The notes beneath the pieces were generated by a model, which saw only the letters and a list, made by a program, of their open reading frames with translations, ran no database searches and had not been told where the DNA came from. Positions 35,182-47,228 of a stretch of 64,000 nucleotides of DNA are shown here, piece by piece. Position 1 is the stretch's first letter. Each line of letters starts with the position of its first letter. The position numbers and the translations under genes were made by a program. Origin of the DNA: Polyangium sp. 15x6 (GTDB taxonomy: Bacteria > Myxococcota_A > Polyangia > Polyangiales > Polyangiaceae); assembly GCF_029960785.1 (NCBI RefSeq), contig NZ_JASBQE010000060.1:1-64000 (forward strand), read 5' to 3'.

Positions 35182-35916
35182 CCACGCCGCGATCCCGCCC
35201 CGCTCTTTCGCTTCCAGCGCCGCCACCTTCGCCATCGAGAGCGTCGTATCGTACGCGACGCGCCGGAACCACACGACGCCCTGATCCATGTCGAGGATCG
35301 CGAACGCCGCGCGTGGATCGTCGTCCCGCGATTGCCCCACGCTCCCCGGGTTGATCAGGTAATGCGCCCCGTCGTCGAGCTTCACCATCTCGCCCGGCGC
35401 CGGCCCGAACGCGCCGCCCCGCGCGCGCCACGCCCCCGCGTGGTGCGTGTGCCCGAAGAGCCCGATCCGCGTGCCGTACCCGCCGTCCTCGAGCGCGCGC
35501 AGGCTCTTCTCCAGCCGCGACAAGCTCGACAGATGCAGCTCGTCGTTCGGCACCGGATGCAGCGCCGCGTGAAACAGCAAGAGCTCGGGAGACGTCTTCC
35601 GGACGAGCGGCAGCGACGCGAGCCAGTCGCGCGCCGCCCCGCCGAGCATCCGCCTCGTCCATCGCATCGCCTGCCGCGCCTTGCGGCCGAAATGCGCCGT
35701 GTCCCGGAGCCCGAGCGCGGCGCGATCGTGGTTGCCCACGACGCACTTCGCCCCGGCCGAAGCGAGCATCCGCGCACATTCGTTCGGGTTCGCCCCGTAT
35801 CCCACGACGTCGCCGAGGCACAGGATCGTATCGACCCGCTCCACGTCGATCGCCGCGAGCACCGCGGAGAGCGCCTCGAGGTTCGCGTGTACGTCCGAGA
35901 GGACCGCGTATTTCAC
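35134..35916 (-). CDS. Calcineurin-like metallophosphoesterase (YfcE/MJ0936-type)
   Basis: 260 residues. It starts at a GTG at 35916 that overlaps the stop of the ATP-grasp gene by 4 bases. The metal-binding motifs are complete: SDVHANLEAL (D, H), CLGDVVGYG (GD), VGNHDRA (GNHD), FHAAL (H) and FGHTHHAG (GHxH), and LINPGSVGQSRDDD closes the fold. Members hydrolyse phosphodiesters or phosphomonoesters with Mn/Fe/Ni; the true substrate is unknown. It is the third gene of a minus-strand operon and its 3' end overlaps the vanW-like gene. Confidence 0.9.
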   Translation of the reverse strand: MKYAVLSDVHANLEALSAVLAAIDVERVDTILCLGDVVGYGANPNECARMLASAGAKCVVGNHDRAALGLRDTAHFGRKARQAMRWTRRMLGGAARDWLASLPLVRKTSPELLLFHAALHPVPNDELHLSSLSRLEKSLRALEDGGYGTRIGLFGHTHHAGAWRARGGAFGPAPGEMVKLDDGAHYLINPGSVGQSRDDDPRAAFAILDMDQGVVWFRRVAYDTTLSMAKVAALEAKERGGIAAWLSARLPLGLFAGQRR

Positions 35917-37160
35917 GGCCGACCTGCCTTCCCCACCCCGCGCAGGGCCCGCCGCCCCACGCGCTTGGCCAGCGTCAACACGAGCGGCCACGGGTCGTCC
36001 CAGGCGAACACGTCGAAGACCTTCGGCCCGCGGTACGAGGCCATGAAATCGCGCAACGACACGGCGCCGGAGGGCCCGTAATCGAGGAGAAACGCCCGCA
36101 GATCACCCTCGACCGAGGCCCAGCGCAATCCCGGACGAACCGGCCCCGAGCTCGGCAGGGGCAGCCCCGCGAGCTCGGCATACGCGAAGAGCGGCAGGTT
36201 CACGCCCGACGCCGCGCCGAGCCGGTTCCACAAATTGAACCGCGGATTCGCCTCCAGCAAGAAGAGCTCCCCCGTCTCCGCGTCCCGCTTGAAATCGAGC
36301 TTCACCACGCCCACGAGCCCGAGCGCCCGCACGACCTCGAGCCCGATCCGCGTCACCTCGGGATCCTCGACGATCTCGATGAACGTGCTCTCCCCCGAGC
36401 CCGAAGGGTACGTCCGGATCTTCTTGCCCACGTGATGCGCGACCGGCTCGCCGCGCGCATTCATCCACGCGTGAAAGCTCGTGATGTGATCGTCGCCGCC
36501 GCGCACGTATCGCTGCACGACGAACGCCGTCCCCGACCGCTGCATCTGTTCGAGCCGTTTGTCGAGCTCCTCCGGCGTCCGCGCGAAGAGCGCTTTCCGG
36601 GGCAAACCGCCCTCCTCCCGGACGGCCGCGGATTTACGGAACGACGTGTGGTTCACGGGCTTCAGGGCGCACGGCAGGGAGACGCGCGAGAGCACCGCGC
36701 CGCGCGTCTTCGCCTCCTCGGACGTCACCGTCGCGGGCACGGGCAGGCCGAGCCGCCGCGCGAGCTTGGCGAAGCGCGCCTTGTCGACGAGGTCCTCGAT
36801 GCGCTCGGCCGGCGGCATCAAAAATCGGTAATGGTGCGCCAGCATCTCCCGGTGCCGCGAGACGCAGAGCAGCATGGAGTCCGTCCCGTAAAACAGCACG
36901 GGCTTTTCGCCCGTCCGTTCGGCCACGATCCGGAGATCCTCGGCCGTCTGGCGCGGGTTCGTCGCGGGATCCGAGATCACGGCCGTCCGCTCCACGTGCC
37001 GCGATCCGAACGTCGGATCCCCGGCGCGCGTCGAGGCCACGACGAAGGGGATCCGACGCACGGGCAGGCCCGCCTCGGCCGGCGCGCTCCCGGAAAAACA
37101 CCGGACCATGTTGAGATCCCCGCAAAGCACGGCCGGGACAAGCGATTCTTCGGGCATCAT
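35913..37160 (-). CDS. ATP-grasp ligase
   Basis: 415 residues from the ATG at 37160, just after a purine-rich ribosome binding site (GGGGGGAGGG). The longer frame to 37391 lies inside the acyltransferase gene and is rejected. The ATP-grasp core shows ALKPVNHTSF (ATP Lys), VVQRYVRGGDDHITSFHAWM (adenine/ribose region) and FLLEANPRFNLWNRLG (metal Glu-x-Asn). Related proteins join carboxylates to amines and often occur beside FemAB-like acyltransferases in exopolysaccharide or surface-polymer clusters, as here. Substrates are not deducible. Confidence 0.88.
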   Translation of the reverse strand: MMPEESLVPAVLCGDLNMVRCFSGSAPAEAGLPVRRIPFVVASTRAGDPTFGSRHVERTAVISDPATNPRQTAEDLRIVAERTGEKPVLFYGTDSMLLCVSRHREMLAHHYRFLMPPAERIEDLVDKARFAKLARRLGLPVPATVTSEEAKTRGAVLSRVSLPCALKPVNHTSFRKSAAVREEGGLPRKALFARTPEELDKRLEQMQRSGTAFVVQRYVRGGDDHITSFHAWMNARGEPVAHHVGKKIRTYPSGSGESTFIEIVEDPEVTRIGLEVVRALGLVGVVKLDFKRDAETGELFLLEANPRFNLWNRLGAASGVNLPLFAYAELAGLPLPSSGPVRPGLRWASVEGDLRAFLLDYGPSGAVSLRDFMASYRGPKVFDVFAWDDPWPLVLTLAKRVGRRALRGVGKAGRP

Positions 37161-37179
37161 TCCCTCCCCCCTTTTCGAA

Positions 37180-38364
37180 TCAAGGTTCTTCTTCGGCGAA
37201 CGCCTCCGCCGGACGCCGCTTCGTGTCCGGAAGCCCGCGCAGCCGCGCGATCTCGCGCGCGGCGCGCTCGGCGTGGTCGCGCAAGGCCTCCCGCAGTGTC
37301 CGCCGCGCCGCCCGGATCTCCACGATCGGACGCGAATCGAGCGCCATGTCCAGCTTGTAACGCACGTCCCCGCCGAGGAAATCGTATTCACGCCGGCCCG
37401 CGTCGATCGCCATTCGAATGGCGAGCGCGTGCGCGGCGATCCCCGGGCGGAGCTTCGGCGGCAAATCGGCGCGCCGGCCGCTCTGATAGAAATACACCTT
37501 GTCGTTCCAGACCACGTTGTACAGGGCCGCCACCGGCTCGCCGCCGGCCCGCAGCACCGAGAGCTCGAGCGCGCCCCGCTCGAGCAGCGCGGGCATCACG
37601 GCGTCGTGGAAGGCCGTGAATTTCGCCGAGGAAAACACCCCGCTCCGCTCGTCCTTCTGCCAGCGCGCCTCGTGCAAGGAGACGAGCGTCGCGCGGGCCT
37701 CCGCGAGCTCCTCGTTCGTCCGCGCGACCGAGAGGACGAGCTCGCCCCGCCCGAAGCTCTCCAGATCCCGCATCGATCGCCGCACGAGGTATCGCCGCGA
37801 CGAAGGCAGCGCCGCGAGATACGCCTCGAACGATCCTGGCAACGTCACGTACGGGCTCCGGCCGCGCTCCGTCAGGGTCACCATCAGATCCCTGCGCCCG
37901 AGGGCGTCCGCGAATGCGAAGGGCGCGCGCTTGCTGCCATCCATCGCCGGGAGCACGACCTCGTCCCAGCCCCCCAGGAGGCCCCCCGCGAGCGCCCGCG
38001 CGGCCGCCTCCGCGACGGCCTCCTCCGCGCCCCGCTCGACCACGATCCCGATGTATTCGGAGACGATTTCGTCCGCCTCGTCCTCCCCCGACGGCAGCGC
38101 TTCGAGCCGCCGGAACGGAAACCCCCGGTGCCACACGCGCCGCGCGACGAGCGGCAAGAGGCCCACGAGCCGCTCCCCTTGCATGATCCGTAGCGCACGG
38201 AGGCATCGCCCGTCCGTCCCGCCGAACACGCGCCACCAGGCGAGGATCCACAAAGGGGAAAGCGTGGGCTCGTTGCAATCGCTGCGATCGAGCAGCGCCT
38301 TCCAGTCACCCTGCATTGCCTCGAGCTCGGCAATATCGGAGACGACGGTGCAGCAGAGTTCCAT
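37180..38364 (-). CDS. FemAB/BioF2-like GNAT acyltransferase
   Basis: 394 residues from the ATG at 38364, preceded by GGGAGGGG. Open frame to 38886 upstream is not used because it crosses the divergent promoter region and lacks domain sequence. The fold is the Acetyltransf_6/FemAB type: YVTLPGSFEAYLAALPSSRR, LVRRSMRDLESFGRGELVLS, FHDAVMPALLERGALELSVL, YFYQSGRRADLPPKLRPGIA and EYDFLGGDVRYKLDM. Such enzymes transfer acyl groups to amino groups of sugars or to cell-surface peptides and polysaccharides. Together with the ATP-grasp ligase and phosphoesterase downstream (19-base gap and 4-base overlap) it forms an operon likely to modify an envelope polymer. Confidence 0.85.
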   Translation of the reverse strand: MELCCTVVSDIAELEAMQGDWKALLDRSDCNEPTLSPLWILAWWRVFGGTDGRCLRALRIMQGERLVGLLPLVARRVWHRGFPFRRLEALPSGEDEADEIVSEYIGIVVERGAEEAVAEAAARALAGGLLGGWDEVVLPAMDGSKRAPFAFADALGRRDLMVTLTERGRSPYVTLPGSFEAYLAALPSSRRYLVRRSMRDLESFGRGELVLSVARTNEELAEARATLVSLHEARWQKDERSGVFSSAKFTAFHDAVMPALLERGALELSVLRAGGEPVAALYNVVWNDKVYFYQSGRRADLPPKLRPGIAAHALAIRMAIDAGRREYDFLGGDVRYKLDMALDSRPIVEIRAARRTLREALRDHAERAAREIARLRGLPDTKRRPAEAFAEEEP

Positions 38365-38821
38365 GGCAGCCCCTCCCGAGGCCGCGCGGCCATTTCGAGC
38401 ATCCCCCGAAAAACCGCGCCCTTCGCCGTATGGAGATCTCGCGCGCGCCCCACGCGCGCCGCGCGAGCCACATGTAGGCACGGACTGCGCCCCACCCTGC
38501 CTTCCGCCCGCACCGATGTACCCCGCCCGCTCGCTCGACCCGGGACGGCCCCCACGTACCTGCCGGACACTCGCCTCCGTCCGCCTTCCCAACGGCCCGG
38601 AAAATCCGCCGCGGCGCTCGCCCGAGAGCGTGTCCGTCCGCGGCGACGAGGGCCCGACAAACTGCACGCTGCCGTGCGCCGCGAGCACATCGCCGCGCAC
38701 AGGAGCGGTCTCGGCGAACGCGGGGGTTGTCCCGAAGAGCCCCGGCGCGTGCACTCGCCCCTTGACGCGGGCAGCACTTCCTTGTCCCATCGGGCCCCCC
38801 CGTAACCGGTCCGAGAGAGCC
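38365..38821. other. 457-base divergent intergenic region
   Basis: Separates the acyltransferase gene (minus) from the adenylate cyclase gene (plus). Frames run through it but read as Pro/Arg-rich low complexity, and no ribosome-bound start is seen. It presumably holds the two divergent promoters, but no clear -35/-10 pair or palindrome stands out. Confidence 0.6.
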
Positions 38822-40213
38822 GTGCTCGACAACCTGAAGAAGCGAATATTCTCGCGTGATCGGCTCCCGGACGACATCCGGCTCATCCTCCAGAATCAGG
38901 AGATGCGGGGCGAGCGGCTCGTCAACTACGTGAGGGGTGTCTTCTCCGCATTCTCCCTCGGCATGATGTTCGTGTCGTCGGAGGCGCAGGCTCCCGCGGC
39001 GCTGCGCACCTTCCGGCTCGTATTGGGCGCCTGGTTCGCCTACTCGGTGATCGTGTGGCTGCTCTTGAGGCGGCGAGATCGCTACTTCCAGTGGCTCACG
39101 TACCTCAGCATTACGGTCGACATCTCGGCGGTTTGCCTCGGGATGATCGGCAGCCTGCAGAACCATTCGGGGGTCTACGAGGTCTACCGAGCCCCCACGG
39201 CGTGGCTCGTCCTCGCCGCCTTCAACGTGATGGCGGGGCTGCGCTACAGCGTCTTCGCGGGCCTCTACTCGTCGTTCCTCGGCGTGCTCTACGCCGCCGC
39301 GATGCTCGTCTACGTACGCCTGCAGCTCGACGTCTCCTGGGTGGACAAGGCCGTCTACCTCGGCCCGGGCCTGAACATCGACGAGTGTGTCATGGCCCTC
39401 GTGTTCAGCGCGACGAACGGCGTCTTCGCGGCCGTCATCGCCTGGAACTCGCGCAGGCTCATCCTGCAGGCGGCCACCGACTCGCTCGCGCGCGAGCGGG
39501 TCGAGCAAGACAAAGACCGGCTCGCCAAGTACTTCTCGAAGGACGTCGTCGACCTCGTGCTGAACAACCCCGAGAGCCTGGCCATCGGGGGACAGCGGAT
39601 GACGGCCACGGTGCTCTTCGCCGACATCCGCAATTTCACGCAGCTCTCCACGATGATGCAGCCCGAGGAGATCGTGGAGCTTTTGAACCGCTACTTCTCG
39701 ACGATGGTCGACATCGTCTTCAAGAACGGCGGCACCCTCGACAAGTTCCTCGGCGACGGCTTGATGGCCCTCTTCGGGGTCCCCTACCCGATCGACCACC
39801 CGGAAGAGAGCGCCGTCCGGACCGCGCTGGAGATGCTCGACGCCCTGCAGGTCATGAACCGCGAGCTCGAAGCCAAAGGCATGCTCCGCCTCGACATCGG
39901 CGTCGGCATCAATGCAGGCCCCGTCGTCGCCGGCAACATCGGCTCCTCGCAGCGCCACGAGTACACCGTCATCGGCGACACGGTGAACCTCGCCGCGCGC
40001 CTCGAAGCGCTCAACAAAGAAACACGCACGCAGATCCTCGTGTCCGCCACCGTGCACCACGCCGTCGAAAAAATCTTCCGCACGCGGCAGCTCGGGCCGC
40101 TGCGCATCCGCGGCAAACCCGAGCCCGTCGAGGTCTTCGCCATCATGCCCTCCGACGTCGTGCCCGAGCCGACGCGCATCTCGCTCCTCCCGCCCTCGAC
40201 CACCTACCCGTGA
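38822..40213 (+). CDS. Membrane-bound class III adenylate cyclase
   Basis: 463 residues from a GTG at 38822 with GAGAG upstream; the 904-residue frame starting at 37499 is a shadow of the acyltransferase. The N-terminal half has about six membrane helices (SAFSLGMMFVSSEA, LGAWFAYSVIVWLLL, WLVLAAFNVMAGL, GVLYAAAMLVYV and others). The cyclase domain has metal Asp268 in FADIRNFT, Lys308 and Asp312 in DKFLGDGLMALFG, and the Asn/Arg transition-state region (VNLAARLEALNKETRT). The Lys is the ATP-specifying residue, so the product should be cAMP. Its stop overlaps the start of the isoprenoid synthase gene (GTGA). Confidence 0.9.
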   Translation: MLDNLKKRIFSRDRLPDDIRLILQNQEMRGERLVNYVRGVFSAFSLGMMFVSSEAQAPAALRTFRLVLGAWFAYSVIVWLLLRRRDRYFQWLTYLSITVDISAVCLGMIGSLQNHSGVYEVYRAPTAWLVLAAFNVMAGLRYSVFAGLYSSFLGVLYAAAMLVYVRLQLDVSWVDKAVYLGPGLNIDECVMALVFSATNGVFAAVIAWNSRRLILQAATDSLARERVEQDKDRLAKYFSKDVVDLVLNNPESLAIGGQRMTATVLFADIRNFTQLSTMMQPEEIVELLNRYFSTMVDIVFKNGGTLDKFLGDGLMALFGVPYPIDHPEESAVRTALEMLDALQVMNRELEAKGMLRLDIGVGINAGPVVAGNIGSSQRHEYTVIGDTVNLAARLEALNKETRTQILVSATVHHAVEKIFRTRQLGPLRIRGKPEPVEVFAIMPSDVVPEPTRISLLPPSTTYP

Positions 40214-41247
40214 ACCTCCTCGACACCGCCTTCCCGAGTTACCTCGCGAAGCAGGCGGAGATCGACGCGGCCTGGGATCTCTGCGAGAAACGCCTCGCCG
40301 GGCTCCCGTCCCCGCTCGACGCGCTCGCCACGCGATTCCTGCGCGCCATCGCGGAAGGAACCACCTCCCACCGCAGCTACTTCTCCGGCCCGCTCGCGCC
40401 GCCGCTGCTCTACATGCCGCTCTGGCTCGCCGATCGCCTCGCCTCCGAGGGCGCGCTCCCCGCGCGCGCGGAGGCCTCGATCGTGCCCATCCTCGCGGCC
40501 ACCATGCAGGGCTACTTCTACGTGCGCATCCAGGACGATCTGCTCGACGATCCCGCGCGCGCGGATCCCGAGCTCCTGCTCCTCGGCAACGCCTGTTTCG
40601 CCGGCATGGCCCTCGCCTACACGGAGGCCCTCGGCCCGCGCGCCCCGGCCTTCTTCCAGGCCTTCGATCGAGCCTTCGCCGCCTTCTCCCGCCTCACGCT
40701 CGCCGAGCTGCGCGTCGTTCGCGGCGACGCGCCCTACGCCGAGGCGCTCTTCGAAGAACACGCCGGCAAGGTCGCCTTCGCGCGCGTGCCCCTGCTCGCC
40801 GTCGCTGCGCTCGCGGACGCGCTTCACCTCGAGGCCGCGATCACGACCCTCGTGGATCGCCTCGGCGTCACCTACGGCCTCGCGAACGACGTGCTCGGCT
40901 GGCCCCGCGATCTGCGCGCAGGTCACCGCACCCACCTGCTCGCCCAGGCGCACCTCTCACGCGCCGACCTGGATCACCTCGCCACGCTCACGGACGAACA
41001 CGCGAGGGGCGAGGCCCACGAGGCCCTCGCCGAGCGGCTCCGCGTGACGCTTTACGAGGGGATGCTCCTGCACCGTACGATCGAGCGGGCCATCGCGGAG
41101 CAGGCGCGCGCCGCCGAGGACGCCCGAGAGCTCGGCCTCCGCGGGTTCGAAGTGTACACCGCGGACCGCCTCGCGTGGCTCGGCGCGCTCGACCGGGAGA
41201 TCCTCGCGATGTCGATGAAGCGCGCGCTCGGGGCGCGATCCCGCTGA
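40210..41247 (+). CDS. Class I isoprenoid/terpene synthase-like enzyme
   Basis: 345 residues starting at a GTG that overlaps the cyclase stop by 4 bases. The fold is all-alpha, with Asp-rich DDLLDD at residues 109-114 and NDVLGWPRD at 226-234. Together these match the first metal motif (DDxxDD) and the second (NDxxGxxxD, a form of the NSE/DTE motif) of class I terpene synthases; prenyl diphosphate synthases would normally carry a second DDxxD. It binds three Mg and ionises a prenyl diphosphate. It lacks the usual chain-elongating FARM/SARM spacing, so a cyclase or prenyltransferase is more likely than a chain elongator. The convergent neighbour is a class II cyclase-like enzyme, suggesting a two-step diterpenoid-type pathway. 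Product unknown. Confidence 0.78.
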   Translation: MNLLDTAFPSYLAKQAEIDAAWDLCEKRLAGLPSPLDALATRFLRAIAEGTTSHRSYFSGPLAPPLLYMPLWLADRLASEGALPARAEASIVPILAATMQGYFYVRIQDDLLDDPARADPELLLLGNACFAGMALAYTEALGPRAPAFFQAFDRAFAAFSRLTLAELRVVRGDAPYAEALFEEHAGKVAFARVPLLAVAALADALHLEAAITTLVDRLGVTYGLANDVLGWPRDLRAGHRTHLLAQAHLSRADLDHLATLTDEHARGEAHEALAERLRVTLYEGMLLHRTIERAIAEQARAAEDARELGLRGFEVYTADRLAWLGALDREILAMSMKRALGARSR

Positions 41248-43101
41248 TCAGCCACGCGCGAGGCGCGCCCTCGTCCGGACGAGGGCATCGAGGCAAAGCG
41301 CGGCCGTGATCGAGCGTGCCCCGTGCGCCGCGAGCGCGAAGTCCTTACCCGGCGTGCGGTAAAACGGTTCACGCGGAAACAGCCCGTCGTAGTCCTGACG
41401 CGACGCGAGAAACGTCACGGCGGGCCAGGGATCGAAGGGCTCCGCTCGCCCACACGCGAGCGCGCCGAGCTGGCACGCGGTCGCCATCACGCCCCCGAAG
41501 CCGCCGTCGGCCCGCCGCGAGGCCAAGATCCGCCGCTCGATGTCGGTCACGAGCGCGCGCAGATGGGCGCGCGGCGCCGACTCGCCCGGCGTTTCCTCGG
41601 CGACGTTCGCGAGCCGCGCGAGCAAGTACCGCGCGAACGGAGCCGGGTAGAAATGCACGGCCTTCGCCCCCTCCGCCTCCCAGACCCGCGCGATCCAGGC
41701 GAGCGTGCGATCGAAGTACCCCTCCGGCAGCGGCGCGTGGGCCTCCGCGAGCCCGATCAGCGCGTTCGCCGCCACCGCGACGCACCGCGATCCGAGCCAC
41801 TTCGGCGCTCCCTCGGGCATGGGCTCGTGCAGGTGCCGCTCGAGCCACACCGCGATCGCCCCGTCCTCGGCCGTGTTGCGCACGAGCACCTCGATCGGCC
41901 AGGCGAGCGCCTGCGTCCGCGCGGCCCCGTCCACCGAGCGCGCGACGAGCTGGAGCGCGAGCCCGAGATCGTCTGCGTCCGGCGGGATGCCCGCGAAACC
42001 TTCGAAGTAGCGGAACCCGTCGACCCCGCGCCGCGCCACGAGCGCCTCGACGCGCGGCGTGATGTCCTCTCCCGCCCCCGAGAGCGCGAGCAGGCAAAGC
42101 CCCACCGGGAACAGCCGCGCCACGTACGTCGCGTCGAACGGCCCTCCCCAGCGCTGGATCTCCCACGACTCGCGCAGCTCGGGGTCGGCGGCGAGGGCAT
42201 CCCGGGCGAGCGTGATGGCCCGGTCGAGCGCCTCGGCGGGGGCGGGCCCTCGGGGCGTGAACCCGAACAGGCGGGCGGCCCGCGACGCACGTGTGATCTG
42301 CGTGGTCGTCAACTCCACGAGGGCCCGCGTGTCCTCTCCGTCGAGCCCCTCGTGCACCTCGTTTGCCCAGGCGGCGCACATCGCTTCGAGCGGCGCCGCG
42401 AGCCTCGGGTCTCCGACGAGCCGAAGCAGCGGCGTCCGGTCCGGCGCGGGTTTGGCAGCCTCGGCGATCGCCCGATCGAATTCGGGGCCGAGCTCCCCTC
42501 TGCCCCGCGCGATCGAGCCGAGGAGCTGCGGCCGGGGCGCGCTCGCGCCGGCGAAGGTGAGCGAGCGGGCTTCGAGCGCGAGGCGAACGAGCCTCCCGAG
42601 GGCGCCCGCCGCGCGGGAGAGGCCGGGCTCGTCCGGACGACCGACCAGGGCGGGCAGGAGGTGGGACAAACCGTAGTCCGCGAGCGGCGAGGACGGCAGG
42701 ATCACGGCCGCGTCGCCGGCCTCCGCGAGGGCATCCCCCACGGCGACGATCACGGAATCGATGACCTCACCCATCGAGGCATCGATCGAGCGGCGAGCCC
42801 CCTCGCGTGATGCGAGCAGGAGCCATGCGGAAGGGGAAAACGATGCCTCGGCGTCCTCGGCCGGCATGGGATCGTGCGGCGCGGACAAACGGGTTGCGGC
42901 GTGGATGGCTGCGGCGAGGAGCAGGAAGGTACGAACGAGGGGAGCGCGCGCTCCGGGCCGATGTTCGTCGGCGATGCGGCCGATGAGCGTCGCCGCTGCG
43001 CGAAGCGCGGCTTCCTCGTGGCCGAGCGTCTGCAGAGAGGCCTTGGCCCGCTGGGCCTCGGCGCGAGGCAAACCCTCCCAGACGGGGTTCAGCGCATCCA
43101 C
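41248..43101 (-). CDS. Class II (DxDD) terpene-cyclase-like enzyme
   Basis: 617 residues from a GTG at 43101; a TTG at 43194 with CGGAG upstream would add 31 residues, so the start is uncertain. The frame to 43266 overlaps the peptide gene and is not used. The acidic motif PPDADDLGLA (Asp375, Asp377, Asp378) is the DxDD proton-donor motif of class II cyclases, preceded by GFRYFEGFAG as in diterpene cyclases and squalene-hopene cyclases. Beta/gamma domain-like helical repeats follow (ASRRADGGFGG, SRQDYDGLFPREPFY resembling QW motifs). Class II enzymes protonate a prenyl diphosphate or squalene to form rings. Its stop abuts the stop of the class I gene with no gap. Confidence 0.75.
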   Translation of the reverse strand: MDALNPVWEGLPRAEAQRAKASLQTLGHEEAALRAAATLIGRIADEHRPGARAPLVRTFLLLAAAIHAATRLSAPHDPMPAEDAEASFSPSAWLLLASREGARRSIDASMGEVIDSVIVAVGDALAEAGDAAVILPSSPLADYGLSHLLPALVGRPDEPGLSRAAGALGRLVRLALEARSLTFAGASAPRPQLLGSIARGRGELGPEFDRAIAEAAKPAPDRTPLLRLVGDPRLAAPLEAMCAAWANEVHEGLDGEDTRALVELTTTQITRASRAARLFGFTPRGPAPAEALDRAITLARDALAADPELRESWEIQRWGGPFDATYVARLFPVGLCLLALSGAGEDITPRVEALVARRGVDGFRYFEGFAGIPPDADDLGLALQLVARSVDGAARTQALAWPIEVLVRNTAEDGAIAVWLERHLHEPMPEGAPKWLGSRCVAVAANALIGLAEAHAPLPEGYFDRTLAWIARVWEAEGAKAVHFYPAPFARYLLARLANVAEETPGESAPRAHLRALVTDIERRILASRRADGGFGGVMATACQLGALACGRAEPFDPWPAVTFLASRQDYDGLFPREPFYRTPGKDFALAAHGARSITAALCLDALVRTRARLARG

Positions 43102-43210: not shown

Positions 43211-43429
43211 TCAGCTCGCGGCCTTGCGGTTGGCCATCTGGCTTTCGAGGCCCTGCGCCATCGCATTCACCTCATCGGGATTGGCGTTCTTGATGGCTTC
43301 GATCACTTCGGGAACGGCATCGTATCCCTCGGCCGTCAGCGTGGCTTCGGGTGCCGCGAGCAACTTCTTCCGGAACTCCACGTCCGTCAGCGCACGACCG
43401 ATGAGCTCTTCAACGCTCTTCTTCGACAT
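43211..43429 (-). CDS. Os1348/NHLP-type small leader-like peptide (possible RiPP precursor)
   Basis: 72 residues with GAGGTG six bases upstream of its ATG. MSKKSVEELIGRALTD, followed by FRKKLLAAPEATLTAEGYD, matches the nitrile-hydratase-leader-like/Os1348 family found as leader regions of ribosomal peptides and as free small proteins. The region after the leader-like part (IEAIKNANPDEVNAMAQG, ending ANRKAAS) has no Cys and only one Ser at the very end, so no obvious core for thioether or heterocycle formation. It is transcribed toward the class II cyclase gene, about 110 bases away (17 if the TTG start is used), and divergent from an M50 protease with a PqqD-like domain. A precursor role is inference from family and neighbours. 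Confidence 0.72.
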   Translation of the reverse strand: MSKKSVEELIGRALTDVEFRKKLLAAPEATLTAEGYDAVPEVIEAIKNANPDEVNAMAQGLESQMANRKAAS

Positions 43430-43601: not shown

Positions 43602-44849
43602 ATGAGCGACAAGTCGAAGCCCGAGCTCGAGCTCCTCATTCGGTCCCGACCCGGCGGCTCTGGATCCACCTCTGGATCCGGCGGTTCGAGCGGCGGCTTC
43701 GTCACGCGACGCTACGTCGCGAACCAGGTCGCGCTCACCGTGAGGCCTCGCCGGATCCCGGAGGAGAGCTACGAAATCCAGGCGCAGTCGAGGAAGGATC
43801 GCAAGCTCTTTTACGTCATCCGGCAGCTCGAGGCCGACAAATACCTCTTCCTGAACGAAGAAGAGTATTTTCTCTGGCAGAAGATGGACGGTCTCCACAC
43901 GCTGCGCGACGTCGCGACGGCGTACTTCCTCAAGTTCGGCTCGTTCGACTTCCGCGTCATCCAACGATTCCTCGCTCGCGCCCGCGAGAACAAGCTCATC
44001 GTCATTCCGCAGACCGATCTCGTCCGGCGCTCGCTCGCGGACGAGCCCGTGTCGATGCGCTCGCAGTTCCTCACGAAGCTCCGCGGGCTCGACCTGCGTT
44101 TGCCGAACGTCGATCAAAAGCTCGCGGTCCTTTACCAGCGGATGCGTGTCCTCTTCACGCGCCCCGCGTTCGCGTGTTACGCGCTGCTGCTCGTCCTCGG
44201 CGGCGTGGCGTTCGTAAAACAGTCGGGCCGCGGGTCGGGCGCCGAGATCCTGCACGCGGGGCACGCGCTGCTCGTGCCCGTCTTCTTGCTCTTCCACGTC
44301 ATGTCCGTCGTGGTGCACGAGCTCGCGCACGCGCTCGCGTGCAAGCACTTCGGCCGCGAAGTGAAGGCGTTTGGCTTCACGTTCATGAACCGGCTCATGC
44401 CGAGCGTGTATGCGGACGTGACGGACATGTGGATGTCGACCCGCAAGGCGCGCATGGCCGTGAGCTTCGCCGGCCCCCTCTCGGGGCTGCTCCTCGGCAG
44501 CGCGAGCGCGATCCTCGCGTGGATCCTGCCTGCCGGCATCCCCTCGTCGTTCTTCTGGTTCGTCGGGATCACGATCGTCGCGTTCTCGCTCGGCAGCCTC
44601 TACCCTTGCCTCTTCATCGAGTCCGACGGCTACCACATCCTGAGCGATTGGCTCCGCATGCCTGCCCTGCGCGAGCACAGCCGCCGTGTCCTGCGCGACA
44701 AGCTCCGCGATATCGTACGCGCCCGTAGAACGCGGCCCATGACGAGCGACGAACGCACGTACTTCCTGTATGGATTGGCTTCGGTCGTCAGTCTCACCGC
44801 CGTCGCCACCACGATCGTGGTGATCGCCGCGCACCGCCTGACGCGCTAA
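43602..44849 (+). CDS. PqqD-like domain plus M50 membrane zinc protease
   Basis: 415 residues from the ATG at 43602 (CGGAG four bases upstream); the TTG at 43545 adds 19 residues and is less likely. After a Gly/Ser linker, residues ~50-150 look like a PqqD-type winged helix (EEEYFLWQKMDGLHTLRDVA, FRVIQRFLARARENKLIVI). Membrane helices follow with the zinc motif HELAH (239-243) in VVVHELAHALACKHFG, a site-2-protease-type YADVTDMWMSTRKARMAVSF and FIESDGYHILSDWLRM. Proteins of this design accompany ribosomal-peptide genes (for example YydH-type loci), where the PqqD-like part can recognise the leader. Here the leader-like peptide gene is divergent, 172 bases away. Confidence 0.85.
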   Translation: MSDKSKPELELLIRSRPGGSGSTSGSGGSSGGFVTRRYVANQVALTVRPRRIPEESYEIQAQSRKDRKLFYVIRQLEADKYLFLNEEEYFLWQKMDGLHTLRDVATAYFLKFGSFDFRVIQRFLARARENKLIVIPQTDLVRRSLADEPVSMRSQFLTKLRGLDLRLPNVDQKLAVLYQRMRVLFTRPAFACYALLLVLGGVAFVKQSGRGSGAEILHAGHALLVPVFLLFHVMSVVVHELAHALACKHFGREVKAFGFTFMNRLMPSVYADVTDMWMSTRKARMAVSFAGPLSGLLLGSASAILAWILPAGIPSSFFWFVGITIVAFSLGSLYPCLFIESDGYHILSDWLRMPALREHSRRVLRDKLRDIVRARRTRPMTSDERTYFLYGLASVVSLTAVATTIVVIAAHRLTR

Positions 44850-44865: not shown

Positions 44866-45387
44866 ATGAAGTTCACCCCGCGACCGCTCCGCAAGGACCA
44901 AATCAAGGACTGCGCCCGCATGCTCCGGCGCGTCACCTTGTTCTCCGCCTGGTCCCCCGACGAGATCGAGGAGTTCGCCGCGCACGTCCAGCTCTTGCCC
45001 TTCCCCTCGCAGGAGGTCGTGCTCTGGGAAGGCGACGCCGGCGACGTGCTCTACATCATCGCCGAGGGCAGCGTCGTCGTGTCGCGCCGCCTGAAGGGCG
45101 ACGTCGAGACCGTCATCTGTCGCTTGCACGCGGGCGACTTCTTCGGCGAGCTCGACGTCATCGACGATCAGTCGGCCTCGGCGAACGTGCAGACCGAGAC
45201 GCAGTGCCTCTTCTACACGATCGATCGCGACACGCTCTACCGCGAGCTCGAGGCGAACCCGCGCGTCTATTCGAAGTTCCTGCTCGCCCTCCTCAAGGAG
45301 GTCGCCAAGCGCCTGCGCACGACGAACCAGCGGCTCATCGACGCGATCCTCTGGGGCATCGACGCGACGTCGCTCGACACGGGCTGA
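44866..45387 (+). CDS. Cyclic-nucleotide-binding domain protein without a DNA-binding domain
   Basis: 173 residues, 16 bases downstream of the M50 protease. The cNMP-binding roll is complete: VTLFSAWSPDEIEEFAAHV, EVVLWEGDAGDVLYIIAEGS, the phosphate-binding cassette (HAGDFFGELDVIDDQSASAN, near FGEL...SASA) and a C-terminal helix (EVAKRLRTTNQRLIDAILWG). No helix-turn-helix follows, so it is not a CRP regulator. It probably senses cAMP and acts on a partner, perhaps the co-transcribed protease; the cyclase gene at 38822 could supply the ligand. The Glu/Arg pair of the cassette is partly altered (no Arg after the Ser-Ala), so ligand binding should be tested. Confidence 0.85.
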   Translation: MKFTPRPLRKDQIKDCARMLRRVTLFSAWSPDEIEEFAAHVQLLPFPSQEVVLWEGDAGDVLYIIAEGSVVVSRRLKGDVETVICRLHAGDFFGELDVIDDQSASANVQTETQCLFYTIDRDTLYRELEANPRVYSKFLLALLKEVAKRLRTTNQRLIDAILWGIDATSLDTG

Positions 45388-45391
45388 TCGT

Positions 45392-46270
45392 TCAGAGACG
45401 AACGGTCCCGAGCGCGGACGAACGGCTGCTCGGCGCGCCCTCCTGCCCACGCCGAAAGCGCAAGAGGAGGAACGTGATGAGCACGGTCGAGGCCGCGACC
45501 AGCACGCCCCCTTCGCTCGCCCAGAGCGGCGCGTGTTCGCCCGTGGTCGAGGCGCCGAAGAACGAGACCACGATTGCGTTCCACGCCGCGTGCATCACCA
45601 CGGGTGGCCAGACGCTCCCCGTGTCGAGCCGGAGCCTCGCCGCGTAATAACTCTGCCCGCAGAGGGACACGACGAAGAGCAGAAGCGAAAGGAGCGGCGA
45701 CGGGCTCGGGTTGTAGTGCCCGCTCAGGATGAGCGGCGCGTGCCAGAATCCCCACACGACGCCGGTCACGAGCGCCGGATGCGGCACGCCCGCGTCGATG
45801 AGGCGCGGCAGGAGGTAGCCACGCCAGCCGATCTCCTCGCCGATCGCAAGCAGGGCCATCGCGGCCGGGCCGATCGTGAGCGCGATGATGCACCCCGCGA
45901 CGAAGCGCTCGCCGGGTGTGCCCCCGGGGATCGGGAACCCGAGCGGGTGCACCGCCGCAGGCTCGAACGCGGCGATGCCCGTGCCCCACGCGAGCCCATA
46001 CGCGGGCAAGGCGATCACCACCGGATAGATCAGCGCCGGCACCAGGGACCACGCCACGCGTCGGTCGAAGCGGAACGATACGTCGCCAAACCCCTCGCGC
46101 AGGACGAACCGCGCGACAACGGACGCGAGGCAGGGGACCCATACGAATGGGAGGAACCTGCTCACCGCGAGGCCGTGCAGCGCAATGTCCACCTGGAACG
46201 GCGCGCTCGCGAGGAGGAGAACCCCGAAGTAGATCGCGAGCCCTCTGCGCGCGCGCCGAACCTTGTCCAT
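45392..46270 (-). CDS. CPBP-family intramembrane metalloprotease
   Basis: 292 residues from the ATG at 46270. The CAAX-protease/bacteriocin-processing (CPBP) motifs are visible: EEIGWRGYLLPRL (EExxxR), FWHAPLILSGHYNP (FxxxH) and HAAWNAI. About eight membrane helices are predicted from the hydrophobic stretches. Family roles include processing of prenylated or bacteriocin peptides and self-immunity. It converges on the cNMP-binding gene with a 4-base gap, close to the peptide, PqqD-M50 and terpene genes, so it may belong to that locus. The longer frame to 46603 reads as charged, non-membrane sequence and is rejected. Confidence 0.88.
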   Translation of the reverse strand: MDKVRRARRGLAIYFGVLLLASAPFQVDIALHGLAVSRFLPFVWVPCLASVVARFVLREGFGDVSFRFDRRVAWSLVPALIYPVVIALPAYGLAWGTGIAAFEPAAVHPLGFPIPGGTPGERFVAGCIIALTIGPAAMALLAIGEEIGWRGYLLPRLIDAGVPHPALVTGVVWGFWHAPLILSGHYNPSPSPLLSLLLFVVSLCGQSYYAARLRLDTGSVWPPVVMHAAWNAIVVSFFGASTTGEHAPLWASEGGVLVAASTVLITFLLLRFRRGQEGAPSSRSSALGTVRL

Positions 46271-46439
46271 CGCCTCGTGCACCGACGGCGAGCTTATACG
46301 GGGTCGAGCCGCGCGGATAGGGACAAGGCAGGCCTCGCGCGGCGTTCCCTCGCGGGCTGGGGCGTCGGCGTCCCGACAAGTCTGTGGTATCGCGTGTTTG
46401 TCCGGCGCATCCGAGCCGACGGCCCGAGGAAGCGTCGGC

Positions 46440-47228
46440 CTAGGGAATCGGGCCAAACCCGTACGAGGCGAGGATCCTCTGCCCCTCGGGCCCCGCGATG
46501 AAATCGAGCAGCGCCTCGGCATCTGCCCGTGCCCGCGCACGGGTCTTCGTGGTGACGGCAGCCCAGACTTCGGGCCTCGGCGCCCATTCTCCCTTTCCGC
46601 CATCGAGCACCTCGATCCCCGCCGCGCCGGGGACCTCCGTACGATAAACGATCGCCGCCGCGACCTCGCCCCGCTCGACGTAGGCGAGCACGGCCGCGAC
46701 GTTCCCCCCGAGCACCACGCGCCCCTCGAGCGCCTTCCACGCCCCGAGCTTCTCCAGCGCCTCGCGCGCGTAACGACCCGCCGGCACCGCGCCCGGCTCC
46801 CCGATCGCGATCTTCTCGCCCGACGGTAAGGCCGTCCCGAGCGTCTGGAACGTGAGCTTCGGCCCGCCCTTCGGCCCGATGAGCACGAGCTCGTTCGTCG
46901 CCACCACGCGCGCTCGTTTGGCGTCCACGTGCCCGCCGGCCGCGAGCCTATCGATCGGATCGCGGGCCGCGACGATCACCAGATCGACCCCGGCGCCGCC
47001 CTCGATCTGCCGCGCGAGCTCGCCCGAGGCCCCGTACGTCGCGCTCACGCGGACGCCTGGATGCGCCGCGGCATACCCCTCGCTCAGCTTGGGGAACACC
47101 TTCCGCAGGCTCGTCGCCGCGGCGACCGTCACCTCCCCGCCCTCCGCGACCTCGCGCTTGCAGCCTGCGGCGACGAACGCGGCGAGGGCGAACCCGAGGA
47201 CGAACGCCCTCCGGCCTAGGGCTCGCAA
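46440..47228 (-). CDS. modA: Molybdate-binding lipoprotein ModA-like
   Basis: 262 residues from a TTG at 47228 (the start gives RAFVLGFALAAFVAAGC with lipobox VAAGC); a GTG at 47243 is the alternative. The mature part is a periplasmic binding protein of the ModA type: VTVAAATSLRKVF, YGASGELARQIEGGAGVDLV, NELVLIGPKGG, AIGEPGAVPAGRYAREALE and GGNVAAVLAYVERGEVAAAI. ModA captures molybdate or tungstate for the ModBC transporter, but no modB/modC is in the window, so the partner must lie elsewhere. The start overlaps the stop of the upstream lipoprotein gene by about 13 bases, implying translational coupling. Confidence 0.85.
   Translation of the reverse strand: MRALGRRAFVLGFALAAFVAAGCKREVAEGGEVTVAAATSLRKVFPKLSEGYAAAHPGVRVSATYGASGELARQIEGGAGVDLVIVAARDPIDRLAAGGHVDAKRARVVATNELVLIGPKGGPKLTFQTLGTALPSGEKIAIGEPGAVPAGRYAREALEKLGAWKALEGRVVLGGNVAAVLAYVERGEVAAAIVYRTEVPGAAGIEVLDGGKGEWAPRPEVWAAVTTKTRARARADAEALLDFIAGPEGQRILASYGFGPIP

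Follow-up and report, generated by a model that had tools for sequence, protein, structure and literature searches.

A conserved Polyangium gene cluster points to possible peptide-tied terpene chemistry

A 64,000-nucleotide stretch of Polyangium sp. 15x6 DNA (RefSeq assembly GCF_029960785.1, contig NZ_JASBQE010000060.1, positions 1 to 64,000 of the forward strand; hereafter the window) carries two convergent genes, P0001 and P0002, whose products have the predicted folds of a class I trans-prenyl synthase and a class II terpene cyclase. Both belong to a conserved six-gene cluster that also encodes a small Os1348-type protein of the NHLP clan, a membrane M50 protease of the type associated with ribosomally synthesized and post-translationally modified peptides (RiPPs), a nucleotide cyclase and a cyclic-nucleotide (cNMP)-binding protein. 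Our tentative reading is that P0001 and P0002 form a split prenyltransferase–cyclase system that acts on, or depends on, a peptide, and the conserved cluster points to such peptide-tied terpene chemistry over an ordinary diterpene pathway.

An earlier note had described the two open reading frames, their motifs DDLLDD, NDVLGWPRD and PPDADD and their abutting stop codons (41247/41248, tail to tail), assigned them to a myxobacterium and proposed class I and class II terpene enzymes side by side. Coordinates and motifs all proved correct, and the host belongs to the genus Polyangium. Structure prediction was run on both proteins and gave the expected isoprenoid-enzyme fold for each, P0002 being recognized by profile search as well. 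The note had overlooked the conserved neighbors, namely the peptide, the RiPP-type protease, the nucleotide cyclase and the cNMP-binding protein.

Predicted folds of P0001 and P0002

The AlphaFold model of P0001, built from 12 sequences, has a predicted local distance difference test score (pLDDT) of 89.3. All 50 VIA-align matches listed for the model are prenyl synthases (best Z 24.1, 283 residues aligned, root mean square deviation (rmsd) 2.8), variediene synthase, a two-domain terpene synthase, being among them; prenyl synthases also run throughout the 50 Foldseek matches listed (best E 1.2e-5), which include the indole prenyltransferase Ord1. Residues P65, P70, Y102, R106, D109, D113, D227 and D234 are invariant among 14 aligned sequences, that of the window included.

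P0001 lacks the combination of a PF00348 match, a GGKxRP motif and two DDxxD motifs that marks a canonical trans-prenyl diphosphate synthase. It has no Pfam or NCBIfam match above cut-off, PF00348 included, and the protein of the window has no GGKxRP motif. At the corresponding place, located by spacing as the profile alignment stopped short of that region, the family has YFxxPxAxPxLxLPxW or similar, and neither Lys nor Arg occurs there in 22 of the 26 rows aligned (two genes appear twice). The second DDxxD is replaced in the window by NDVLG, within a stretch, NDVLGWPRD, that fits the class I NSE pattern. Four of the aligned relatives, none of them of the six-gene cluster type, do have a second DDxxD (L048, L049, L050 and L054); the others have none. 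The predicted fold and these four relatives favor a role of P0001 as an ordinary chain-elongating prenyl diphosphate synthase supplying P0002, but with both GGKxRP and the second DDxxD missing from the window protein and five canonical PF00348 genes elsewhere in its own genome, we consider this role very improbable. The absence of an adjacent prenyl diphosphate synthase or P450, which the earlier note had remarked on, holds for the canonical families (5 matches to PF00348 and 37 to PF00067 genome-wide, none on the contig of the window), but P0001 itself has a prenyl-synthase fold.

The AlphaFold model of P0002 drew on 19 sequences and is confident over the part that begins near residue 285. 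Its C-terminal ~330 residues are predicted to form a class II terpene cyclase domain, an alpha/alpha-barrel resembling MstE and squalene–hopene cyclase (SHC). The closest structure is 8pak (Z 30.2, 309 residues aligned, rmsd 3.2), and further matches include 8paj (Z 30.1), MstE (28.5), drimenyl diphosphate synthase (28.5), SHC (28.1) and ent-copalyl diphosphate synthase (ent-CPS, 23.9), with 6ij1 also among the best (Z 28–30). The first unrelated structure appears at Z 23.0 and the true class II enzyme Tpn2 ranks lower, at 22.6; thus Z alone sets apart the cyclases closest to P0002 but fails to distinguish more distant ones. The family profile from alignment A5 (locus L084, with 24% identity, was excluded from alignments A3 and A5) reaches SHC (4e-22) and drimenyl diphosphate synthase (6e-21) through short repeated QxxDGxW-like stretches, and 8pak (8e-14) and MstE (1e-8) along the domain. 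P0002 is therefore similar to MstE and the myxobacterial SHC-like cyclases (PDB 8pak, 8paj and entries beginning 6sb) in fold, with Z values of 28–30, and in a profile match along the domain, but differs from them in its low identity (16–18%), an extra 284-residue N-terminal region and another genomic setting.

D375 and D377 of P0002 are invariant in both the 19-row and the 14-row alignment, window included; given such invariant residues, the motifs of P0001 and P0002 lie beyond chance. The fourth position of DxDD varies in the family (D, L, S, C or T), and two of the six genomes of the genus have DSDL in place of DADD. The middle Asp of this motif is the catalytic acid in SHC and oxidosqualene cyclases, and a variable last Asp is expected if the middle one is the acid. 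From its place in the motif we propose Asp377 as the general acid of P0002.

These results also bear on the pathway suggested by the earlier note, a copalyl-type diterpene pair in which P0002 would turn geranylgeranyl diphosphate into a cyclic diphosphate and P0001 would ionize the product. The pairing of class I and class II enzymes stands, DADD and DDxxD are both present, and drimenyl diphosphate synthase and ent-CPS are among the fold matches of P0002. The comparison with copalyl-type enzymes is nevertheless weak: a single domain of P0002 was matched and its best rows are MstE- or SHC-like, the listed fold matches of P0001 are prenyl synthases, and P0001 occurs without P0002 in nine f33 clusters. 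We regard such a pair as improbable.

Relatives of P0002 join the two enzyme classes. A PF00348 domain precedes the cyclase domain at loci L040 (45.2 bits) and L042 (39.1 bits; cut-off 27), and the corresponding score at L043, 19.7 bits, is under the cut-off; the Pfam scan gave no PF00348 match for L036, L067, L068, L074 or the P0002 of the window. In the relatives from four Chloroflexota loci and from L130 the N-terminal domain and P0001 are homologs (hhalign 99.8%, E 5e-29), and four of these five P0001-like rows have lost one or both of the invariant DDxxD Asp residues (L074 retains both). Because P0001-like or PF00348 N-termini are fused to class II domains in these relatives, the prenyltransferase (P) and cyclase (C) appear to belong together; in the window they are not in one polypeptide, whereas at L040 and L042 they are fused. 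The whole-family P0002 profile matches polyprenyl synthetases over its N-terminal part (4lob, 1.3e-5; 3mzv, 1.8e-5). For the window N-terminus itself the connection is indirect: hhalign gives 3% with f27 alone, 0.2% with f31 alone, 42% (E 3e-4, 107 columns) against the pooled set, and 0.1–0.2% against P0001. This N-terminus also changes faster in evolution than the cyclase part. Judged from sequence, the N-terminus of P0002 is probably a class I domain that has eroded, and its poorly modeled structure leaves room for a possible gamma domain. As a separate observation, the P0002-type proteins at L040, L041, L042 and L043 (644–658 amino acids) have a prenyl-synthase-like N-terminus (L041 was outside the Pfam scan) with no Os1348-type or cyclase match nearby, and a Band_7 (SPFH) gene lies upstream of the P0002-type gene in L040.

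Single-sequence searches with P0001 and P0002 against the PDB, Pfam and NCBIfam, and with the relative at L036 against the PDB, gave no meaningful match. In a Pfam scan of four class I-type and eight class II-type proteins, L040 and L042 alone attained a cut-off (that of PF00348), and in an NCBIfam scan of nine such proteins none did; genome-mining tools built on such models would probably miss the cluster.

Distribution and organization of the cluster

Genome searches scored at most 4, 7, 12 or 21 places per genome, depending on the search, and the counts are lower bounds. Relatives of P0001 occur in at least 22, and those of P0002 in at least 10, of 282 Myxococcota genomes, that of the window included. 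The two genes are adjacent in three further genomes (G151, G091 and G246; loci L036–L038), and in a fourth genome (L047) a profile search picked up a distant P0002 in the vicinity of P0001. A scan of named genomes with a pattern from the P0002 alignment returned 19 loci. These come, among others, from Polyangium fumosum (best segment 47% identical), from Sorangium cellulosum and from members of the Chloroflexota (Herpetosiphonaceae, Anaerolineales and Anaerolineae); the cluster spans at least two phyla. Within the host family, profile matches to P0002 were found in at least 40 of 108 genomes, most of them short; they are long in 13, including all six of Polyangium and all six of g218, a Sorangium-type genus.

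The arrangement of the cluster varies by lineage. All six searched genomes of the genus have the nucleotide cyclase and P0001 first, next P0002 and the Os1348-type gene, both on the opposite strand, and last the M50 protease and the cNMP-binding protein; in the window the GTG start of P0001 overlaps the TGA of the nucleotide cyclase (GTGA, 40210–40213). Five of the six g218 genomes have P0001, the peptide, P0002 and the nucleotide cyclase on one strand, and the sixth (L130) has P0001, the peptide and a P0002 with a P0001-like N-terminus, with no cyclase match in 16 kb; no M50 match was found in the g218 loci. All four Chloroflexota loci combine P0001, the peptide, a P0002 with a P0001-like N-terminus and a protein in which an HExxH motif and a cNMP domain are fused, and three of them have a nucleotide-cyclase match (L074 has none). 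Nine of the ten loci of the f33 type contain the nucleotide cyclase, P0001, the peptide and the M50 protease, with no P0002 in the stretch examined, the tenth (L065) being P0001 alone. These f33 clusters hold the peptide and the class I enzyme without P0002, which indicates that it is the class I enzyme to which the peptide is linked. To the usual core of class I enzyme, peptide and nucleotide cyclase, a class II enzyme is thus often added. Of 25 P0001-type matches in the 282 Myxococcota genomes, 15, the one in the window among them, have a match to PF14407, the family of the peptide, at a distance of no more than 3 kb; the p value of this co-occurrence (7e-15) ignores shared descent, and we do not use it as support.

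The small protein and the possible chemistry

The peptide of the window matches PF14407 with 60.4 bits (cut-off 48) and NF038399 with 62 bits (cut-off 40). Its gene has ratios of nonsynonymous to synonymous change (pN/pS) of 0.12 against L122 (94% identical), 0.47 against L121 and 0.29 against L123. Cys is present in 5 of 31 distinct peptides and Tyr in 19, often at an EGY site that has Phe or Ile in others. Most P0002-linked peptides end in [KRQ]AA followed by one or two residues (RKAAS, RKAAF, RKAAA, NKAAV, NRAAI), Sorangium peptides in GGVGM, and f33 peptides mostly in RG[ED]Y followed by two residues. The family is that of Os1348 from Pseudomonas sp. Os17 (PMC7726476); neither "terpene" nor "squalene" appears in the main text of that paper. 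When small open reading frames of 18–140 amino acids with little overlap with the six genes were compared as alternative precursors, those common to at least three of the six genus genomes all fell on the Rce1-like gene beside the cNMP gene, in other frames.

From the genes, motifs, predicted folds, conserved cluster and fused relatives, we infer the following chemistry. P0001 would bind an allylic diphosphate (C10–C20) through DDxxD and Mg2+, ionize the diphosphate and deliver the resulting prenyl cation to an acceptor distinct from isopentenyl diphosphate, and Asp377 in the DADD of P0002 would then protonate the prenyl chain and so bring about ring closure. The class I remnant at the N-terminus of P0002 may pair with P0001, a proposal based on the dimeric nature of class I prenyl synthases. 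The acceptor would most likely be the neighboring NHLP-clan peptide, or something that the peptide presents, and the membrane protease could subsequently cleave the peptide. The nearest model to this M50 protein is the daptide protease NF041824 (1.1e-34 over 340 amino acids; 120 bits, cut-off 300), which argues for such cleavage. Control of the process may fall to the nucleotide cyclase and the cNMP-binding protein.

P0001 may resemble tryptophan prenyltransferases in its action but target a different residue; alternatively, a small-molecule pathway may have the peptide as its partner. A bolder version of the first, which we think unlikely, is a bacterial counterpart of CaaX processing: the separate class I enzyme would prenylate the NHLP-clan mini-protein at a non-Trp residue near its C-terminal -AAX, the class II enzyme would cyclize the chain, membrane proteases would trim the product and a cyclic nucleotide would switch the process on. 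The second is the main competitor, judged somewhat less likely than the reading that we favor, in which P0001 would convert or transfer a prenyl diphosphate and P0002 would cyclize the free product, a small-molecule terpenoid, with the Os1348-type protein as partner or regulator and cyclic nucleotides gating the pathway. cNMP-binding proteins are known to accompany 2-methylisoborneol enzymes, the peptides have hardly any core and share no nucleophile, and the peptide gene of the window is on average under purifying selection. In addition, a methyltransferase gene stands beside P0001-type genes at L045, L046 and L052 (cluster F10), of S-adenosylmethionine type by Pfam at L046, where the peptide gene is present too. 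The NDVLGWPRD of P0001, by its fit to the class I NSE pattern, speaks for this rival as well. Encapsulins accompany geosmin clusters, according to passages of PMC12766979. A free terpenoid would, however, leave unexplained both the RiPP-type protease beside the peptide and the precedent for P–C enzymes described below.

Several findings weigh against the split, peptide-tied system that we favor: (i) Sequence profiles tie P0001 to prenyl synthases weakly; a search with its family profile places them at E 0.56–0.94, below one unrelated row, and hhalign of the family against one prenyl synthase of its own genome gives 14% over 73 columns. (ii) The profile scores behind the eroded-domain view of the window N-terminus are weak as well (0.1–42%). 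(iii) Of the 26 aligned rows (two genes again appearing twice), 17 have Gln and 9 have Gly as the residue before the second motif of P0001, with Gly in Polyangium, the window included, and f33, and Gln in the remaining rows; the Gln that is linked to tryptophan recognition, as passages of a review have it (PMC13290415), is thus Gly in the window. (iv) Ten of 25 P0001-type and five of ten P0002-type matches (L039–L043) have no PF14407 match within 3 kb. (v) Of at least 35 PF14407 matches in the phylum search, 19 of the 35 lie near neither enzyme and only 5 are above the curated cut-off, the f33 peptides being below it. (vi) PF14407 fills residues 6–66 of the 72 in the window peptide, which leaves a core of six residues at most. 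(vii) Trp occurs in 2 of the 31 peptides, one from L064 (f33 type) and one from the weak outlier L083, and is absent from that of the window. ComX-like prenylation of Trp was rejected as a candidate, the residue being wanting in the peptide.

Comparison with known systems shows which themes the cluster shares. In ChrPC and NctPC, as the review outlines them, a P domain is fused to a cyclase domain, which in NctPC resembles MstE, and the enzyme acts on a peptide Trp (PMC13290415). The RiPP maturase ChrPC (Hubrich et al. 2024, via PMC13290415) resembles the window in its P and C fold types and their pairing, with L040 and L042 as fused relatives; compared by description, the window differs in having two genes, a Trp-free peptide, Gly for Gln, and added protease and cyclic-nucleotide genes. 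PalQ is a trans-isoprenyl diphosphate synthase (trans-IDS)-like enzyme with an NHLP precursor, PalX, whose core has eight residues (PMC10853753), and the window likewise has a trans-IDS-like enzyme beside an NHLP-type small precursor. PalX has a conserved C-terminal Trp, and the kinase–precursor–prenyltransferase trio of PalQ, as outlined in that paper, comes without a class II cyclase (PMC10853753). With ComQ, PalQ and the P domain of ChrPC, P0001 shares the predicted trans-prenyl-synthase fold and the first Asp motif, and with ComQ also the missing canonical second DDxxD; unlike it, these Trp prenyltransferases have Gln before the second motif and a Trp acceptor in the peptide. All characterized trans-IDS-like peptide prenyltransferases modify tryptophan, according to the review (PMC13290415). 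With no Trp, Gly for Gln and a near-absent core, the window system therefore cannot be classified with the Trp prenyltransferases; it joins the themes of P–C pairing and NHLP precursor in split form and adds cyclic-nucleotide genes. Full-text literature searches, which did not cover the primary ChrPC paper, returned no description of this cluster. If the peptide is the acceptor, terpenoid-modified RiPPs would extend beyond tryptophan; if it is not, the cluster would represent a terpenoid pathway linked to cyclic nucleotides, whose mini-protein lacks an explanation.

Other cluster genes and surroundings

The coordinates of all features are collected in Table 1. The best NCBIfam model for the cNMP-binding protein is CRP (3.2e-17), followed by TIGR03896, a bacteriocin-type transport-associated family (2.5e-12), both far below cut-off. 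An encapsulin shell was considered and rejected, given that the scores of the cNMP proteins against the family 2B encapsulin model lie far below cut-off and come from the cNMP part.

Table 1 Features of the gene cluster, with positions in the window unless a locus is named.
Feature	Position	Strand	Details
GNAT (PF13480) and weak ATP-grasp (PF15632, under cut-off) gene pair	35913-38886	-	Adjoins nucleotide cyclase
Class III adenylate/guanylate cyclase	38882..40213	+	PF00211 6.4e-29; start inferred, open frame from 37499
P0001, class I trans-prenyl-synthase-like enzyme	40210..41247	+	345 amino acids; GTG 40210, TGA 41245-41247
P0001 first Asp-rich motif, DDLLD (D109-D113, in RIQDDLLDDP)	40534..40548	+	D109, D113 invariant, 14 sequences
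NDVLGWPRD (N226 at 40885), place of second DDxxD in P0001	40885..40911	+	D227, D234 invariant
P0002, class II terpene-cyclase-like protein	41248..43101	-	617 amino acids; GTG 43101, stop 41250-41248
P0002 DADD, residues D375-D378 (in PPDADD)	41968..41979	-	D375, D377 invariant
P0002 N-terminal region, residues 1-284	42250..43101	-	PF00348 in relatives; Asp motifs absent here (by eye)
Os1348/Frankia_peptide (NHLP clan) small protein	43211..43429	-	PF14407, NF038399; 72 amino acids, C-terminus RKAAS
Membrane M50 metalloprotease, RiPP type	43602..44849	+	PF02163 7.9e-8 (over cut-off); start inferred, open frame from 43545
Cyclic-nucleotide-binding protein	44866..45387	+	PF00027 1.4e-18; 173 amino acids
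Rce1-like CAAX endopeptidase	45392-46603	-	PF02517 3.1e-15; tail to tail with cNMP gene
HExxH-cNMP proteins	L068:4977-6635, L073:5008-6720, L074:4690-6414, L079:5020-6678, L046:14409-16082		

The HExxH–cNMP proteins have 552–574 amino acids, carry their HExxH motif around residue 100 and the cNMP domain at the C-terminus, and are putative cyclic-nucleotide-gated proteases. The Rce1-like gene adjoins the cNMP gene in all six genus genomes and was not found in the other loci scanned. On the other side of the cluster, similar-sized genes occupy the place of the GNAT and ATP-grasp genes in P. fumosum (L066). At L049 and L051 (f23) a P0001-type gene without a peptide is divergent from an rnpA–yidC region, YidC being recognized by Pfam in L049 and rnpA by eye.

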